From NCBI GenBank assembly GCA_945878135.1, contig CAMDUL010000008.1, forward strand, positions 1-64,000: a stretch of DNA of 64,000 nt, read 5' to 3'. Below, in pieces: positions 53,916 through 60,058 of the stretch (position 1 is the first letter of the stretch; each line of letters begins with the position of its first letter). The translations under genes and the position numbers were made by a program. This stretch comes from Chthoniobacter flavus. GTDB lineage: Bacteria > Verrucomicrobiota > Verrucomicrobiia > Chthoniobacterales > JACTMZ01. The notes beneath the pieces were generated by a model, which was not told where the DNA came from, did no database searches, and worked only from the letters and a program-made list of their open reading frames with translations.

Positions 53916-55439
53916 ATGAAAAGCTTCCTGCAATTTCTCCTTTTTGTCCTGGTCATCACTCTGGCCCTGGCCGGGCTCTACGCGTGGAAAAGCGGACAGT
54001 TCGACCGCGCGGCGGGGCCGGAGCCGGTGCGTGAGTCGAGCGCGTTGCCGGACGTCAAGCCGGCCATTGGTCGCGGATCGGTTCCGGGGTTGGCGGCCTT
54101 GGACGAGGAATTCACGCGGGTGGCCGAAGCGGTGATTCCGTCGGTGGTCAGCATCACTTCGCGCCGCGGCGCCACGGTCGACCCGCGCGAGGAGTTGTTG
54201 CGCCAGTTTTTCGGCCTGCCGCCTTCGGCGCGTCCGGAGTCGGTTCCGCAGGGTTCCGGGGCCATTGTTTCCAAGGAAGGTCACGTGGTGACCAATGTGC
54301 ATGTCATCGAAGGCGCGGAGGAGATCCTGGTGAGCCTGGGTGACGGACGCCGCTTGCCGGCCGAGTTGCTCGGCGCCGACACGTCCTCCGACCTCGCCAT
54401 CCTGAAGATCGAGGCCGAGGGGTTGCGGCCGCTGGGTTTCGCCGATTCCGACACGGTGCGCGTCGGCCAGCTCGTCTTCGCGGTGGGCAATCCCTTCGGT
54501 CTGCAGGAAACGATCACGCAGGGGATCATCAGTGCGCGCGAGCGCTTGTTCTCCAGCGAGGTGGCCAACGATTTTTTCCAGACCGATGCGGCCATCAACC
54601 CCGGAAACTCGGGCGGTCCGCTCATCAACATCCGCGGGGAGATCGTCGGCATCAACAACTTCATTTTTTCCCAATCCGGCGGCAGCCAGGGCATCGGTTT
54701 TTCCATCCCTGCGAACACCGTGCGCCGCGTGCTCGACCAGATCCTCGAACATGGGCGCGTCCTGCGTCCGCAGCTCGGCGTCGTCCTCGAGCCCCTCGAT
54801 CCGGGGACGGCTACCCGGCTCGGCCTGCCGGACACGCGGGGCGCCCTCATCGGCGGCGTGCAGGCCGAATCGCCGGCGGCCAAGGCCGGGCTGCAACCCG
54901 GCGATGTCATAAGGAAATTCGACGGCCGCGAAGTGCGTGATTTCAACGATCTGCGCAAACGCGTGGCCGCGGCGAAAATCGACAGCACGGTGAAGACCGA
55001 GGTGTTGCGCAACGGCCAGCAGCTCGACCTTTCGGTCACCATCCGCGAGGCGCCGCAGCGCGCTCGCATGGCAGCCTTGCCCGCCCCGCCGCCTGCGGGC
55101 GTCGTGCCGCAACCGTTGCCGCCGTCCGCTCCCAGCCCCGCTCCCGCCGGGACCGCGGGCGCTCTCACCGGAGTGGAGGTGACCGGCCTGACCCCGGACC
55201 TGGTGGCGCGTTACCGCCTGCCGGAAAACATCGCCGGCGTCCTTGTGAGCGAGGTGGCCCCCGCTTCTCCGGCCCGGGGGCGGTTGCGTCCGGGCGATGT
55301 CATCGAACAGATCAACGACACGCCGGTGGCCACGCCCGGCGAGTTTGCGGCGGCGGCCGGTGCGCTGGCCCCCGACGAGGCGGCCATGCTTCTGCTCGCC
55401 CGCGGGCGGGTCCGATCCTTCGAGGTGATCACGCCTTGA
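53916..55439 (+). CDS. DegP/HtrA-like serine protease with two PDZ domains
   Basis: 507 residues. The N-terminal helix (FLQFLLFVLVITLALAGLYA) is a signal or anchor. The catalytic triad is His129 (VVTNVHVIEG), Asp159 (DTSSDLAILKI) and Ser232 (INPGNSGGPLIN). PDZ1 (about 290-375, LGVVLEPLDPGTATRLGL, GLQPGDVIRKFDG) and PDZ2 (about 420-507, LRPGDVIEQINDTPV) are joined by a Pro-rich linker. It degrades misfolded envelope proteins. It lies 58 nt upstream of the three-gene envelope operon and could be co-transcribed. Confidence 0.94.
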   Translation: MKSFLQFLLFVLVITLALAGLYAWKSGQFDRAAGPEPVRESSALPDVKPAIGRGSVPGLAALDEEFTRVAEAVIPSVVSITSRRGATVDPREELLRQFFGLPPSARPESVPQGSGAIVSKEGHVVTNVHVIEGAEEILVSLGDGRRLPAELLGADTSSDLAILKIEAEGLRPLGFADSDTVRVGQLVFAVGNPFGLQETITQGIISARERLFSSEVANDFFQTDAAINPGNSGGPLINIRGEIVGINNFIFSQSGGSQGIGFSIPANTVRRVLDQILEHGRVLRPQLGVVLEPLDPGTATRLGLPDTRGALIGGVQAESPAAKAGLQPGDVIRKFDGREVRDFNDLRKRVAAAKIDSTVKTEVLRNGQQLDLSVTIREAPQRARMAALPAPPPAGVVPQPLPPSAPSPAPAGTAGALTGVEVTGLTPDLVARYRLPENIAGVLVSEVAPASPARGRLRPGDVIEQINDTPVATPGEFAAAAGALAPDEAAMLLLARGRVRSFEVITP

Positions 55440-55497: not shown

Positions 55498-56493
55498 ATG
55501 AAATCTCCGGTCGGAAAAACGTTTTTGGTGGCCGCGACCATCCTCGGTCTTGCGGCTTTGGCCCAACTGGTGGCCGTGCTGGTTTATTTCGGTCCCGGCC
55601 TCAAGGCGACAACGGTGGCCGCTTCCGCTCCGGCCCCCGCCGACGAAGCACCGTCCGCCCCGGCCGAGCCGGCTCCCGAAAGCCCTCCGCCGGCCGCCGC
55701 CGAGGACGACGCTCAGGTCGCGGCGCGCGTGGCGGAATTGCTGGCCGAAGCGGAGAAACTCGGGGGCGGAACCTCCCCCGGCGACGCTTTGGTTCCGCTC
55801 GAGGAAGCCCAGATGCTGCAGCCGCGCAATGCCGAGGTTCTGTCGCGCCTGGCCGGGCTGCACGAGCGCCTGGGGCAGACCGAATTGGCCGAGGCAGCGT
55901 GGCAGGACCTCATTTCCCTCGGGCCGGACGCGGGGCGTTTCCTCGAGGTGGCGGAAATCCGGCTGCGCCTGCTCAAGCCGGAGGCTGCGCCGGCCGAAAC
56001 GGCCGCTGCTGAAGCCCTTGAATTGCGCGACCAAGTCGGCCTGCAACCGGGATCTTTGCTTGGGGTGGTCGACTTGAAGCTGAACGACAACAACGAAGGC
56101 GGCGCCGAGACCAAGGATTTGCGTCTGGCGGTCAAAGCCCGTCCGGGCGAGACGGTCGACGGCCGCGACGTGCGCATCAACGTGACTTTCTACGAAATGC
56201 TCAATGGCGAAATCGTCCCGACCATGAGCCGCGTGCAGTCGATGTGGTTCACCACCCCGGTCGATTGGAAAGACGAGGGCATTGAAATTCTCGAGGTCAA
56301 ATACGAGGTCCCGCGTCTCGGACCCGACGGTGGTCCGGCCCCGGAATACTACGGCTACGTGGTGAACATTTACCATCGCGGCCAGTTGCAGGAAACGCGC
56401 GCCGAACCGGTCGATCTGCAGGAATTGTTCCCGCCGCCCTTGAGCGAATTGCCGGCCGCAGACGCGTCCCTCCCCGCCGGCGAGGTTCCATGA
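55498..56493 (+). CDS. Membrane-anchored TPR-like protein, envelope operon gene 1
   Basis: 331 residues from ATG 55498 (MKSPVGKTFLVAAT). A membrane helix (TFLVAATILGLAALAQLVAV, about 8-28) and a Pro/Ala/Glu-rich stalk (35-75) lead to a short TPR-like helical part (LEEAQMLQPRNAEVLSRLAG, about 95-150) and a C-terminal beta domain (VRINVTFYEMLNGEIVPTMS, YGYVVNIYHRGQLQETRAE). No known family. Its stop overlaps the ATG of the receiver-pseudokinase gene (ATGA), so the products are made together. Confidence 0.85.
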   Translation: MKSPVGKTFLVAATILGLAALAQLVAVLVYFGPGLKATTVAASAPAPADEAPSAPAEPAPESPPPAAAEDDAQVAARVAELLAEAEKLGGGTSPGDALVPLEEAQMLQPRNAEVLSRLAGLHERLGQTELAEAAWQDLISLGPDAGRFLEVAEIRLRLLKPEAAPAETAAAEALELRDQVGLQPGSLLGVVDLKLNDNNEGGAETKDLRLAVKARPGETVDGRDVRINVTFYEMLNGEIVPTMSRVQSMWFTTPVDWKDEGIEILEVKYEVPRLGPDGGPAPEYYGYVVNIYHRGQLQETRAEPVDLQELFPPPLSELPAADASLPAGEVP

Positions 56494-58415
56494 AGATCCT
56501 GCTGGTCGACGACGAGGAGCATGTCCTCGACGCCTGGCGCGCTTTGCTTGACGGGTTCGAGGTGCGCACCGCTTCGACCGGCGGCGACGCGCTCAAGGCG
56601 GCCCGTGCCTGGGGCGGACCCGATGTGCTGGTGACCGATGTGGTCATGGAACCGATGGACGGCTTCCGTCTCCGCGACATGCTGGCGGCCGAGTTCCCGC
56701 GCATGCGGACGGTTTTTCTCAGCGGCTACGACCTTTCCGGCCACGCCGACCGGATCGCGGGCGCCCCGGTGCTGGCCAAGCCGGTGACACGAGAGCAACT
56801 GGTTGCTGTGCTCGCTGCCCCGCCGGGGCTCGCCCCGGGGATGAACCTGGGCGCGTATTACCTGCAGGAGCCGGCCGGGGAGGGGGCGGAAACGCTGGAT
56901 TTCCTGGCCTGGCAGGCCTCGATGTCCCGCCATGTCCTCCTCCACGCGCTTTCGGCAGAAGCCGCCAAGGAGCCGGCCGCGGTCGAAAAATTCCTCGCCG
57001 ATGCCCGGGCCAAGGCCGCGGTGACCCATCCTTACCTCCTCGCCGTGCACGAAGCGGGGGAGGCGGACGGCCATTATTTTTACAGTTCGGATTTTGTCCC
57101 CGGTTACACCCTGGCGGCTTACGCCGCGGCCGGTCACCAACTTGACGACCGGGTTTTGCTCGCGGCCATGCGCACCGCGGCCGAGGTGTCCGGGCACTTC
57201 GGGCAGCAGGGTCTCGGGCGCCGCCGGTTGGAGCCCGGTGACGTGCTGCTCGATGGCTCGTTGCGCCCGCGTCTGGCCAATCTCGCGCAGTCGGGGGCGG
57301 TCACCCCGCCGGACGAGGGTTCGGAGGTACGCGCTTTCGCCGCGGTGATCGGGCAGCTCGCCGCCCCGGGTGGCGCGGTGGCGGGTGCGGCGGCGACCTT
57401 GCAGGAGGCGGAACGGCCGGACTGGGCGCTGGTCCTGCAAACGGCGAACGCAGCGCAGCCGGTGTCCGCACCCAAAGACGCCGGCCGCCTCGGCGCGCGC
57501 GCCGCGAAATCCAAGGAACTCGTCGAGCAATCCAAGCGGCAGCAGAAAAAGCGTCTCTTGATCACCGCCGCCTTGTCCATGCTCGTCCTGCTGGTCGGGG
57601 TGCTGGCGTTGTTGCGTTTCTTCGCCGGCGGCACGCGCACGGTGGTGACGAGCATGATTGAAATTCCCGCCGGCGAATTTGTCTACCAGGACGGGGAGCG
57701 TGTCACATTGCCCGCCTTTTGGATCGACGAGCACGAGGTGACCATCGCGGACTACAAAGAGTTCCTCGATTTCCTCGAGGCGAATCCCGACCAGGCGAAA
57801 AATTTCGCGCACCCCGACATGCCCGAGGGCAAATCGCACGTGCCGCTCGATTGGGCCGACAACAATGCTTTGACCCCGCCGATGCCCGGATACTACACGC
57901 GCGCGGTGCGCTGGAAGCAATTCAAGGACGCCCCACTCGAGGTCGACTCCCCGGTCTTCAATGTCGACTGGTTCGACGCCTATGCTTACGCCAAGTGGAA
58001 AGGCCGCCGTCTTCCGACCGAGCAGGAGTGGGAAAAAGCCGCGCGCGGCACCGATGCCCGCAAATTCCCCTGGGGCAACGAAGAGGATCCGACGCGGGCC
58101 GGCACGGGCCACGATTACGACCCCGACCCGAAGAAAGGCGGGGATCTCGACGGCTACAAGCGCTGGTCGCCGGTCAACCAGCCGGCCGGCGACGTCAGTC
58201 CCTACGGGGTGCGGGGGTTGGGCGGCAATGTTTCGGAATGGACGGCCACCTTCGCCCCCCACGAGGAGGGGATGGGTGGCGAGGTGCCGGTCGTGCGCGG
58301 CGGCAACTGGGGCAACCCCGAACACCACGTCACGCGCCGGCGGGCTATACTGGACCCTTTGCAACAGCAGGATACACTGGGGTTTCGCACCGTGTCTGAC
58401 ACGCCCCCGCAATGA
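56490..58415 (+). CDS. Receiver - degenerate kinase - TM - FGE-like fusion protein
   Basis: 641 residues. Residues 1-110 are a receiver domain with Asp7/Asp8, phospho-acceptor Asp50 (LVTDVVMEPMDG), Ser78 and Lys97 (LAKP), all intact. Residues 120-330 follow a Ser/Thr kinase outline (VTHPYLLAVHEAGEADGHYF, then LEPGDVLLDGSLRPRLANLA) but the HRD and DFG motifs are replaced by RRL and LANLA, so it is probably a pseudokinase. One helix (RLLITAALSMLVLLVGVLAL, about 355-377) exports the rest: an FGE-sulfatase/SUMF1-like domain (FWIDEHEVTIADYKEFL, RLPTEQEWEKAARG, GGNVSEW, VVRGGNWG). The chain has no cysteine, so copper-dependent formylglycine chemistry is impossible. It overlaps both neighbours by 4 nt. 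Confidence 0.85.
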   Translation: MKILLVDDEEHVLDAWRALLDGFEVRTASTGGDALKAARAWGGPDVLVTDVVMEPMDGFRLRDMLAAEFPRMRTVFLSGYDLSGHADRIAGAPVLAKPVTREQLVAVLAAPPGLAPGMNLGAYYLQEPAGEGAETLDFLAWQASMSRHVLLHALSAEAAKEPAAVEKFLADARAKAAVTHPYLLAVHEAGEADGHYFYSSDFVPGYTLAAYAAAGHQLDDRVLLAAMRTAAEVSGHFGQQGLGRRRLEPGDVLLDGSLRPRLANLAQSGAVTPPDEGSEVRAFAAVIGQLAAPGGAVAGAAATLQEAERPDWALVLQTANAAQPVSAPKDAGRLGARAAKSKELVEQSKRQQKKRLLITAALSMLVLLVGVLALLRFFAGGTRTVVTSMIEIPAGEFVYQDGERVTLPAFWIDEHEVTIADYKEFLDFLEANPDQAKNFAHPDMPEGKSHVPLDWADNNALTPPMPGYYTRAVRWKQFKDAPLEVDSPVFNVDWFDAYAYAKWKGRRLPTEQEWEKAARGTDARKFPWGNEEDPTRAGTGHDYDPDPKKGGDLDGYKRWSPVNQPAGDVSPYGVRGLGGNVSEWTATFAPHEEGMGGEVPVVRGGNWGNPEHHVTRRRAILDPLQQQDTLGFRTVSDTPPQ

Positions 58416-59308
58416 GCCTCCGATTTTCATCCCGATTCACCCTGGTCGCGGGTTTGTTGCTGCTGGCCGGCGCGGCCGAGCAGGCGGCGGCGCAGGTCCG
58501 TGTGGACATCAGTTTCAAGCGGAAACTCTATGTCATGTATGAGCCGCTCATCGCCGCGGTCACCGTGCACAACCTGAGCGGGCGCCAACTCCTGCTCGAC
58601 AACACGCCGGACCACCGCTGGCTGAGTTTCAACATCGAGACGGCCGACGGCCGGATCATTCCTCCCGTCGACCCCGACTACTCTTTCCCGCCCGCGGCGG
58701 TCGAGGCCGGCGAGAAATTGCCCGCCGCTTTCAACCTCACACCCTTGTTTCCCCTGCAGGAGTTCGGCCTCTACCGCGTCCGGGCTTCCGTCTATGTCGC
58801 CGAATTCGGAAGGTTCTTCAGCTCGCCGCCGCTGGCCGTGGAGATCACCGAGGGCCGGCCCATCTGGCAGGAGGTCGTCGGTGTCCCCGGCGGCGACGGA
58901 CGGCCCGAATTGCGCACCATCACCCTGCTTTCGCACAAATTGTCGCGCAGCACGCGCCTTTACGCGCGCATCGAGGACCGCGAGAACGGGCGCATTTACG
59001 CCACGCACCAGCTGGGGCCTTTTCTCACCTTCGGTCGTCCGGATGTCATCCTCGACGCGCGCAACGAGATCCACATCCTGCAGAACAACGCCCCCAAGCA
59101 GTTCCTTTACACGCACCTCGATCTGGACGGGAAAGTGATCGACCGCCAGTTTTACGTCGAGGCGGGGACCCGGCCGCGGCTGATCAAGCAATCCGGCGGC
59201 ACGGTGGTGGTCTCCGGCGGCCGGCCTTACATCCCGGGCGAGGAAGAAAAGGCGCAGATGGAGGCCGACAAGATCGGTGATCGCCCCGTGCCGCTGCCCG
59301 GTTCTTGA
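58412..59308 (+). CDS. Secreted protein of unknown function, envelope operon gene 3
   Basis: 298 residues. The signal peptide (FTLVAGLLLLAGAAEQAAAQ) is cleaved near residue 28. The rest looks beta-rich and immunoglobulin-like (LYVMYEPLIAAVTVHNLSGR, FGLYRVRASVYVAEFGRFFS, AVEITEGRPIW), with a Gly/Pro-rich end. No family recognised. Its start overlaps the fusion-protein stop (ATGA). It is the likely soluble partner of the outer part of the operon's membrane proteins. Confidence 0.85.
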   Translation: MSLRFSSRFTLVAGLLLLAGAAEQAAAQVRVDISFKRKLYVMYEPLIAAVTVHNLSGRQLLLDNTPDHRWLSFNIETADGRIIPPVDPDYSFPPAAVEAGEKLPAAFNLTPLFPLQEFGLYRVRASVYVAEFGRFFSSPPLAVEITEGRPIWQEVVGVPGGDGRPELRTITLLSHKLSRSTRLYARIEDRENGRIYATHQLGPFLTFGRPDVILDARNEIHILQNNAPKQFLYTHLDLDGKVIDRQFYVEAGTRPRLIKQSGGTVVVSGGRPYIPGEEEKAQMEADKIGDRPVPLPGS

Positions 59309-59374
59309 GGCCGAAAAGCCTTGCGCGGTCTCCGGCGGGCCGTTAGCTTCCCCGCCCCTCAAAGAAAACTTTTC

Positions 59375-60058
59375 ATGCCTGCGACCAAGAAAAAACCCAA
59401 GGCCAAGCCGGCGCCCAAGCCGGCGGCCAAGAAGAAACCGGCGGCCAAAAAACCTCCCGCGGCGAAGAAACCCGCCGCGAAAAAGCCGTCCACGGTGCCG
59501 GCCAAACGGCCCGACCGCGCGAGCAAGGCCCCATTGGTCGGCACGCGCGACATGCTCGCTTTCGGCCAACCCGTGGACAAAAGCCGCCGTCTCAATCCAT
59601 GGCTCAAGAAGCAGCAACTTCGTCTGCTCGCCCTCAAAGACACCCTGCTCGATTCCATGACCGGGGTAGCCCGCGACAACCTGCGCACCGGCCATGATGC
59701 CCACGAGGTCTCGGCCCACGGGTTGCACCAAGCCGATGCGGGCAGCGACGCCTACGACCGTGATTTCGCCCTCAATCTCCTCTCGCAGGAGCAGGATGCG
59801 CTTTTCGAGATCGACGAGGCCCTCAAGCGCGTGGCCAAAGGCACCTACGGGACCTGCGAGATGAGCGGCAAGCCGATCCCCAAAGCTCGCCTCGAGGCGC
59901 GCCCGTTCGCGCGCTTCACCGTCGAGTGTCAAAACGAGATCGAGAAGAAAAACCGTTTCAGCCGTATTCGCCAACCCGTCGGGCGCCTCTTCGATTCCCT
60001 GGACGAGGAGTCCGGCGAGGACTCCGACGAAGAAACCTCGGCCGACAGCAAGGAATAA
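59375..60058 (+). CDS. DksA/TraR-like protein with Lys/Ala/Pro-rich N-terminal tail
   Basis: 227 residues. The first 50 are a Lys/Pro/Ala tail ([20 protein letters not shown], histone-H1-like). A coiled-coil follows, with [17 protein letters not shown]-type sequence ([20 protein letters not shown]), then the zinc-finger region [20 protein letters not shown] and FARFTVECQ. Only the first and last of the usual four cysteines remain; the second and third are Ser and Thr. DksA-like proteins enter the RNA polymerase secondary channel and tune rRNA transcription. It is 4 nt upstream of rpmG. Confidence 0.88.

Follow-up and report, generated by a model that had tools for sequence, protein, structure and literature searches.

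A conserved three-gene operon of Verrucomicrobiota encoding a receiver-pseudokinase fusion with an FGE-like domain

The three-gene locus

The first 64,000 bp of contig CAMDUL010000008.1 from a Chthoniobacter flavus genome assembly (GCA_945878135.1), referred to here as the window, include three consecutive genes on the forward strand, designated gene 1, gene 2 and gene 3. Gene 2 encodes a fusion of a receiver, a pseudokinase, a transmembrane (TM) segment and a domain related to formylglycine-generating enzyme (FGE), and the analysis confirmed both the pseudokinase fusion and the conservation of the trio as an operon. An earlier annotation made from the DNA letters alone (the sequence-only reading) had described the trio as joined by ATGA overlaps. 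This is borne out by the open reading frame coordinates, as the start codon overlaps the preceding stop codon at both the gene 1/gene 2 and the gene 2/gene 3 junctions. The interpretation offered in that reading is, as a whole, partly supported. No description of the gene 2 domain order was found in the literature searched, from which subscription journals and preprints are mostly absent. The features of the locus are as follows.

55498..56493, + strand: gene 1, ATG 55498 to TGA 56493, 331 amino acids, membrane-anchored
55507-55605, + strand: gene 1 N-terminal hydrophobic segment, residues 4-36, from hydropathy
After this segment, + strand: gene 1 Pro/Ala-rich linker
About 55780-55929, + strand: gene 1 TPR, from a profile
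56038-56490, + strand: gene 1 conserved C-terminal domain (C-domain), no known family
56490..58415, + strand: gene 2, ATG 56490 to TGA 58415, 641-amino-acid fusion (receiver, pseudokinase, TM, FGE-like)
56490..56813, + strand: gene 2 receiver domain, residues 1-108, with D7/D8, D50, S78 and K97
56838..57518, + strand: gene 2 pseudokinase, about residues 117-343, predicted kinase fold without catalytic Asp, DFG or activation segment
57546..57638, + strand: gene 2 single TM, hydrophobic residues 353-383, with a Lys/Arg-rich stretch just before
57648..58394, + strand: gene 2 FGE-sulfatase-like domain, residues 387-635, no cysteine, best solved relative SUMF2
58412..59308, + strand: gene 3, ATG 58412 to TGA 59308, 298 amino acids, probably secreted, undescribed family
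About 58412-58495, + strand: gene 3 signal peptide, by eye

Domains of gene 2

Conservation of the gene 2 domains was assessed mainly in an alignment (A3) of the window protein with those from 26 of the 34 order-level loci that have gene 2. Excluded were L011 and L038, which run off the contig end, L030, L037 and L040, in which the start pattern failed, and the partial L049, L053 and L054. A second alignment (A4, 14 rows) partly overlaps the first.

The pseudokinase is recognised by its fold and by the loss of its catalytic motifs. A search with the Pfam Pkinase profile, proposed with the sequence-only reading, gave a divided result: the window protein has no match at E ≤ 1, but 14 of the other A3 members, out of 27 in all, match at E ≤ 1e-3, and gene 2 of L025 reaches 53 bits, above the cut-off of 31.7. 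By phmmer, the kinase-like part of the window protein matches PknB (6e-9), and the structure prediction likewise called for returned a protein kinase fold, with Foldseek matches of the model that include 3uqc, 3otv and 3oun. Residues 3-213 of the predicted model align to PknB 4-278, more than 60 residues fewer, and the activation segment is missing from the model, in which the strand at 149-151 leads on to a helix at 165. In the window protein, RRR aligns at the position of HRD and ANL at that of DFG, as the claim of a kinase-like region without these motifs requires. The catalytic HRD Asp and the DFG Asp are lost in every row of A3 (27) and of A4 (14), while both motifs are present in three control sequences, and the kinase regions of the excluded L011, L038, L030, L037 and L040 also lack them. 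The β3 Lys is a His in the window and is retained in seven of the 26 A3 relatives; Asn264 is invariant in both A3 and A4. The region, which is under purifying selection, thus has the predicted fold of a Hanks-type Ser/Thr kinase with neither its catalytic Asp pair nor its activation segment.

The phospho-receiver, claimed to be intact, proved so in the window. Residues 3-108 match Pfam Response_reg (E = 9.3e-13), and the acidic pair D7/D8, the phospho-acceptor D50, S78 and K97 expected of a response regulator are all present. Among the 26 A3 relatives, 19 have D at position 50, four have E, two have Q and one has N, and these states require at least six changes on a quick tree built without the receiver columns. 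The receiver profile has no match in gene 2 (approximately 500-600 amino acids) of L177, L179, L180, L181 and L191, nor in that of L070. As the receiver is intact in the window but absent or altered in some relatives, this input is optional in the gene 2 family; the Asp to Glu replacement in four of the 26 could represent a locked 'on' state. HisKA, the one histidine kinase family searched, has no match on the window's contig and six elsewhere in the genome.

Hydropathy identified one hydrophobic segment in gene 2 (residues 353-383), in agreement with the proposed single membrane helix, and the FGE-like domain claimed to follow it matches FGE-sulfatase over residues 387-635 (E = 5.2e-40). From this topology the domain would be extracytoplasmic. 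Its best solved relative is SUMF2 (4.3e-20), followed by SUMF1/FGE, and it is the most constrained domain of gene 2. The mechanism of FGE is cysteine-based and uses a catalytic cysteine pair near the C-terminus. The window protein has no cysteine in its 641 residues, exactly as had been noted, and the cysteine chemistry of FGE is therefore not usable there; the protein has the FGE-sulfatase domain of a formylglycine-generating enzyme without the catalytic pair. Absence of cysteine is not a family trait, as each of the 26 A3 relatives has 1 to 7. Within aligned columns 600-641, no A3 row has two cysteines and three (L039, L041 and L044) have one.

Gene 1 and gene 3

The product of gene 1 conforms to the membrane-anchored TPR-like partner described earlier, given the hydrophobic residues 4-36 and a TPR that is weak in the window alone (TPR_19, E 0.011, below the cut-off) but clear by profile. 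Its C-domain has 11 invariant positions across 24 sequences. For gene 3, described as a secreted beta protein, a signal peptide and a beta-rich character can be read by eye, but the signal peptide was not flagged by the hydropathy threshold and the protein matches no known family at its cut-off. No convincing Pfam or Protein Data Bank relative of gene 3 was found by sequence, the best E values in searches for its fold being 0.25 in one and 0.012 (under the cut-off) in another. Across 28 sequences, 19 positions are invariant.

Conservation of the trio

A gene 2 match was found in 55 of 57 genomes, and loci were read from 40 relatives; G009, G013, G017, G018, G027, G028, G034-G036, G042-G044, G050, G051, G055 and G056, with a weak match or none, lie outside the 40-locus count. 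The survey of synteny in Verrucomicrobiota, put forward as a check on the operon, found matches to all three genes in 28 of the 40 order-level loci by tblastn, and in 29 by profile, the profiles having been built from most of these loci. The 28 include L033, in which gene 3 lies approximately 2 kb off, L049, which lacks the FGE part, and L053, in which gene 2 is frame-broken; L039, in which gene 1 is cut, counts as the 29th by profile only. Among the remaining loci, the contig ends on the gene 1 side in L011 and L038, L042 lacks gene 1, L045 lacks gene 3, and L054 is truncated on the gene 3 side and also lacks gene 1. One family (f5; L046-L048 and L050-L052) has the FGE part only. In same-genus genomes the trio is complete in nine of ten, G009 (65% complete) having only the weak match. 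When the start codon nearest to a 4-nucleotide overlap is taken, such an overlap is available between genes 1 and 2 in 24 of the 28 loci and between genes 2 and 3 in 19. The gene order is confirmed as real and beyond chance, being kept across an order at identities down to about 30%.

In L049 (6732-7952, + strand), gene 2 is reduced to receiver and pseudokinase (407 amino acids) and is followed by gene 3, the FGE part being absent.

Fourteen further loci (L090-L102 and L124) were read, and six (L090, L091, L094, L095, L102 and L124) have the trio. Genes 2 and 3 are present on the short contig of L092, genes 1 and 2 in L093 and L096-L099, and a gene 2-like gene only in L100 and L101. The records for L095 and L101 are Akkermansia muciniphila metagenome-assembled genomes, and those for L096, L099 and L102 are Akkermansiaceae. 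The proteins of L095 are approximately 26-31% identical to those of L070 (genus g31), and the Akkermansia muciniphila label on L095 may be wrong. The receiver-pseudokinase-FGE gene of L100 (1398-3368) lies on a contig recorded as betaproteobacterial, which may be misbinned, as suspected, or may reflect transfer.

In a survey of 288 sampled genomes of the phylum (profile threshold E ≤ 1e-6), gene 3 was matched in 191 and the gene 1 C-domain in 77. In the own-, order- and class-level genomes, gene 3 was found in 42, all of which also have gene 1, and gene 1 alone in eight. Genes 1 and 3 are adjacent in 32 of 41 placed genomes, which represent nine genera (21 of the 32 belong to g31), and apart in nine (five genera). 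Six of these nine were read, and genes 1 and 2 are still adjacent in five (L177 and L179-L182), the exception being L178.

Outside the class, distant relatives of the gene 1 C-domain adjoin a family 2 glycosyltransferase in L189, L190, L193 and L185, and in L189 an outer membrane efflux protein is also found beside it.

Genes flanking the trio

Upstream of the trio, a Do-family serine endopeptidase (HtrA/DegQ type; 53916..55439, + strand) ends 58 nucleotides before gene 1. An HtrA match is present in 15 of the 40 order-level loci, and these matches come from three families only. Downstream, a DksA/TraR-type zinc-finger protein is encoded at 59321-60058 (+ strand); the long Lys/Pro/Ala-rich tail in front of the zinc finger resembles, by eye, a histone H1 tail.

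Comparison with known systems

PASTA kinases consist of a kinase domain, a single TM and an extracytoplasmic binding domain. Gene 2 shares the kinase fold and this layout with PknB/PASTA-type Hanks kinases, but has a receiver in front and an FGE-like domain in place of PASTA, and lacks the catalytic Asp, DFG and activation segment. Membership of the PASTA kinase (Stk1) family was rejected (NCBIfam score 41 bits, cut-off 450). The MviN/Rv3910 pseudokinase, solved with FhaA and among the Foldseek matches (3uqc, 3otv and 3oun), also has a bacterial kinase-homology domain, in its case part of a lipid II flippase protein that is not known to carry a receiver or FGE-like domain. SUMF2 and FGE/SUMF1 belong to the same FGE-sulfatase family as the outer domain of gene 2, in which the catalytic cysteines of FGE are absent, but are stand-alone proteins with no known receiver or kinase.

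Kinase-FGE fusions at L128 and L140 resemble gene 2 in placing a kinase before an FGE-like domain in one chain, and differ in keeping HRD and DFG and in giving no receiver match. Chlamydial Pkn1 is a further kinase-FGE precedent, FGE being unmentioned, though, in the review passages searched. The PATAN (DUF4388) response regulators PixE and PixG combine a CheY-like receiver with DUF4388, as do some gene 2 relatives; regulators of this type are not known to have a pseudokinase, TM or FGE. GldK/PorK and GldJ of the type IX secretion system carry an FGE-like domain in an envelope lipoprotein, to which gene 2 adds the receiver and kinase-like parts. Membership of this secretion system was rejected (GldK NCBIfam score 53.6 bits, cut-off 350), as was that of EgtB/SenA, with a score far under the cut-off. 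A variable protein of a diversity-generating retroelement was also rejected, there being no RVT_1 (reverse transcriptase) match in the window genome (90.7% complete).

Proposed role and alternatives

The reading we tentatively favour is that the three proteins form one inner-membrane/periplasm complex in which gene 2 encodes a single-chain transmembrane switch and genes 1 and 3 are its partners, the signal probably passing outwards from the cytoplasm into the periplasm. On the inside, the pseudokinase would serve as a scaffold that binds proteins or nucleotides, and the CheY-like receiver would be an optional input to it. On the outside, the FGE-like domain, without the FGE catalytic cysteines, would bind a partner or ligand. 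The gene 1 protein, with its membrane anchor, TPR and conserved C-domain, and the gene 3 protein, secreted and beta-rich by eye, would both be periplasmic partners of gene 2. A more specific form of this proposal, in which a receiver-controlled pseudokinase, a scaffold rather than a catalyst, alters the C-type-lectin-like outer domain from the inside out, as part of an undescribed envelope machine of Verrucomicrobiota, is rather doubtful.

The distribution of the genes supplies the points that weigh against a single complex. Gene 1 occurs without an adjoining gene 2 in L178 and in L174-L176, L186 and L187 (order or class level, no gene 3), which are the five read of the eight genomes with gene 1 alone. 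Conversely, L042 and L054 have gene 2 without an adjoining gene 1, and L075 and L188 carry genes 1 and 3 without gene 2, gene 3 directly following gene 1 in L075. Gene 3 is far commoner than gene 1 in the phylum (191 against 77), and all 13 loci read outside the class (L077-L089) have gene 3 without the other two, with heptosyltransferase-like genes nearby in seven and metallophosphatase-like genes in five (named by eye). In the six f5 genomes, the FGE part lies in another place, and the genome contains neither gene 3 nor a convincing gene 1. As the genes are found separately in many loci, the parts can evidently work apart.

Alternatively, the signal could run outside-in, the FGE-like domain and gene 3 sensing a ligand, the pseudokinase reporting to a cytoplasmic partner and the receiver tuning the response. 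The ligand might be a glycan, a peptidoglycan fragment or a misfolded protein (an HtrA gene adjoins the trio), and the reporting would resemble wall sensing by PASTA kinases. The affinity of the pseudokinase to PknB-type membrane kinases, the strong constraint on the FGE part and the HtrA matches in 15 of 40 loci are consistent with such a sensor, but the HtrA matches are limited to three families, and the receiver points to one or more inputs from the cytoplasmic side, so that we consider it doubtful.

A further proposal, that gene 2 regulates a type IV pilus-like or secretion motor, its outer part docking on envelope components, is unlikely. It draws on DUF4388, which is matched in four of the 27 A3 members and in L076 and L048. 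A review attributes to cyanobacterial PATAN (DUF4388) response regulators a presumed action on the pilus motor, and puts forward the hypothesis that PixE binds PilB1 (PMC7690835). In L048, the FGE gene encodes DUF4388, a TM (by eye) and FGE, and small GTPase, pseudopilin-like and PilT-family ATPase genes come after the FGE gene in L046, L050 and L052 (by clustering; cluster domains were tested on L048 and L050, and the pseudopilin match is weak). The window genome has seven T2SSE matches. However, DUF4388 has no match in the window gene 2 (E ≤ 1) and none in the window genome, so that gene 2 is not a PATAN regulator. At the two T2SSE places read, the ATPase is the only cluster gene found, with an adjoining open reading frame that starts pseudopilin-like (by eye), and no pilus gene was seen by eye beside the trio. 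The DUF4388/pilus association is the only, and indirect, functional hint for the system.

DUF4388 as a general insert between receiver and kinase was rejected, being confined to four of the 27 A3 members, with a Pro/Ala-rich linker in the others listed. In L076, a receiver plus DUF4388 gene sits between gene 1 and gene 3. The f5 clusters lie at L046:28-4556, L048:2577-5639 and L050:6487-10279, and in L048 only the pseudopilin-like cluster gene is visible before the contig end. The FGE orthologue overlaps an upstream gene in L046 and L048, the L048 copy of which matches no known family. This upstream gene was rejected as a gene 1 relative, as the gene 1 profile has no match in the six loci even at E 10, and genome-wide gene 1 matches in f5 cover the N-terminal/TPR part only.

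That gene 2 is still catalytic, as a non-canonical kinase or an FGE-type oxidase, is very improbable, for although some relatives keep the β3 Lys and some other pseudokinases do unusual chemistry, HRD and DFG are missing in every aligned row and the window protein has His for the β3 Lys, no activation segment and no cysteine for FGE chemistry.

The trio has been retained in at least two orders of Verrucomicrobiota, and neither gene 3 nor the gene 1 C-domain has a convincing described family. A kinase fold that is under selection, has lost its catalytic motifs and is fused to a receiver offers a clean case for kinase folds as pure scaffolds in bacteria. If the inside-out form of the proposed complex is true, two-component and Hanks-kinase architecture would be merged in a single transmembrane allosteric relay.

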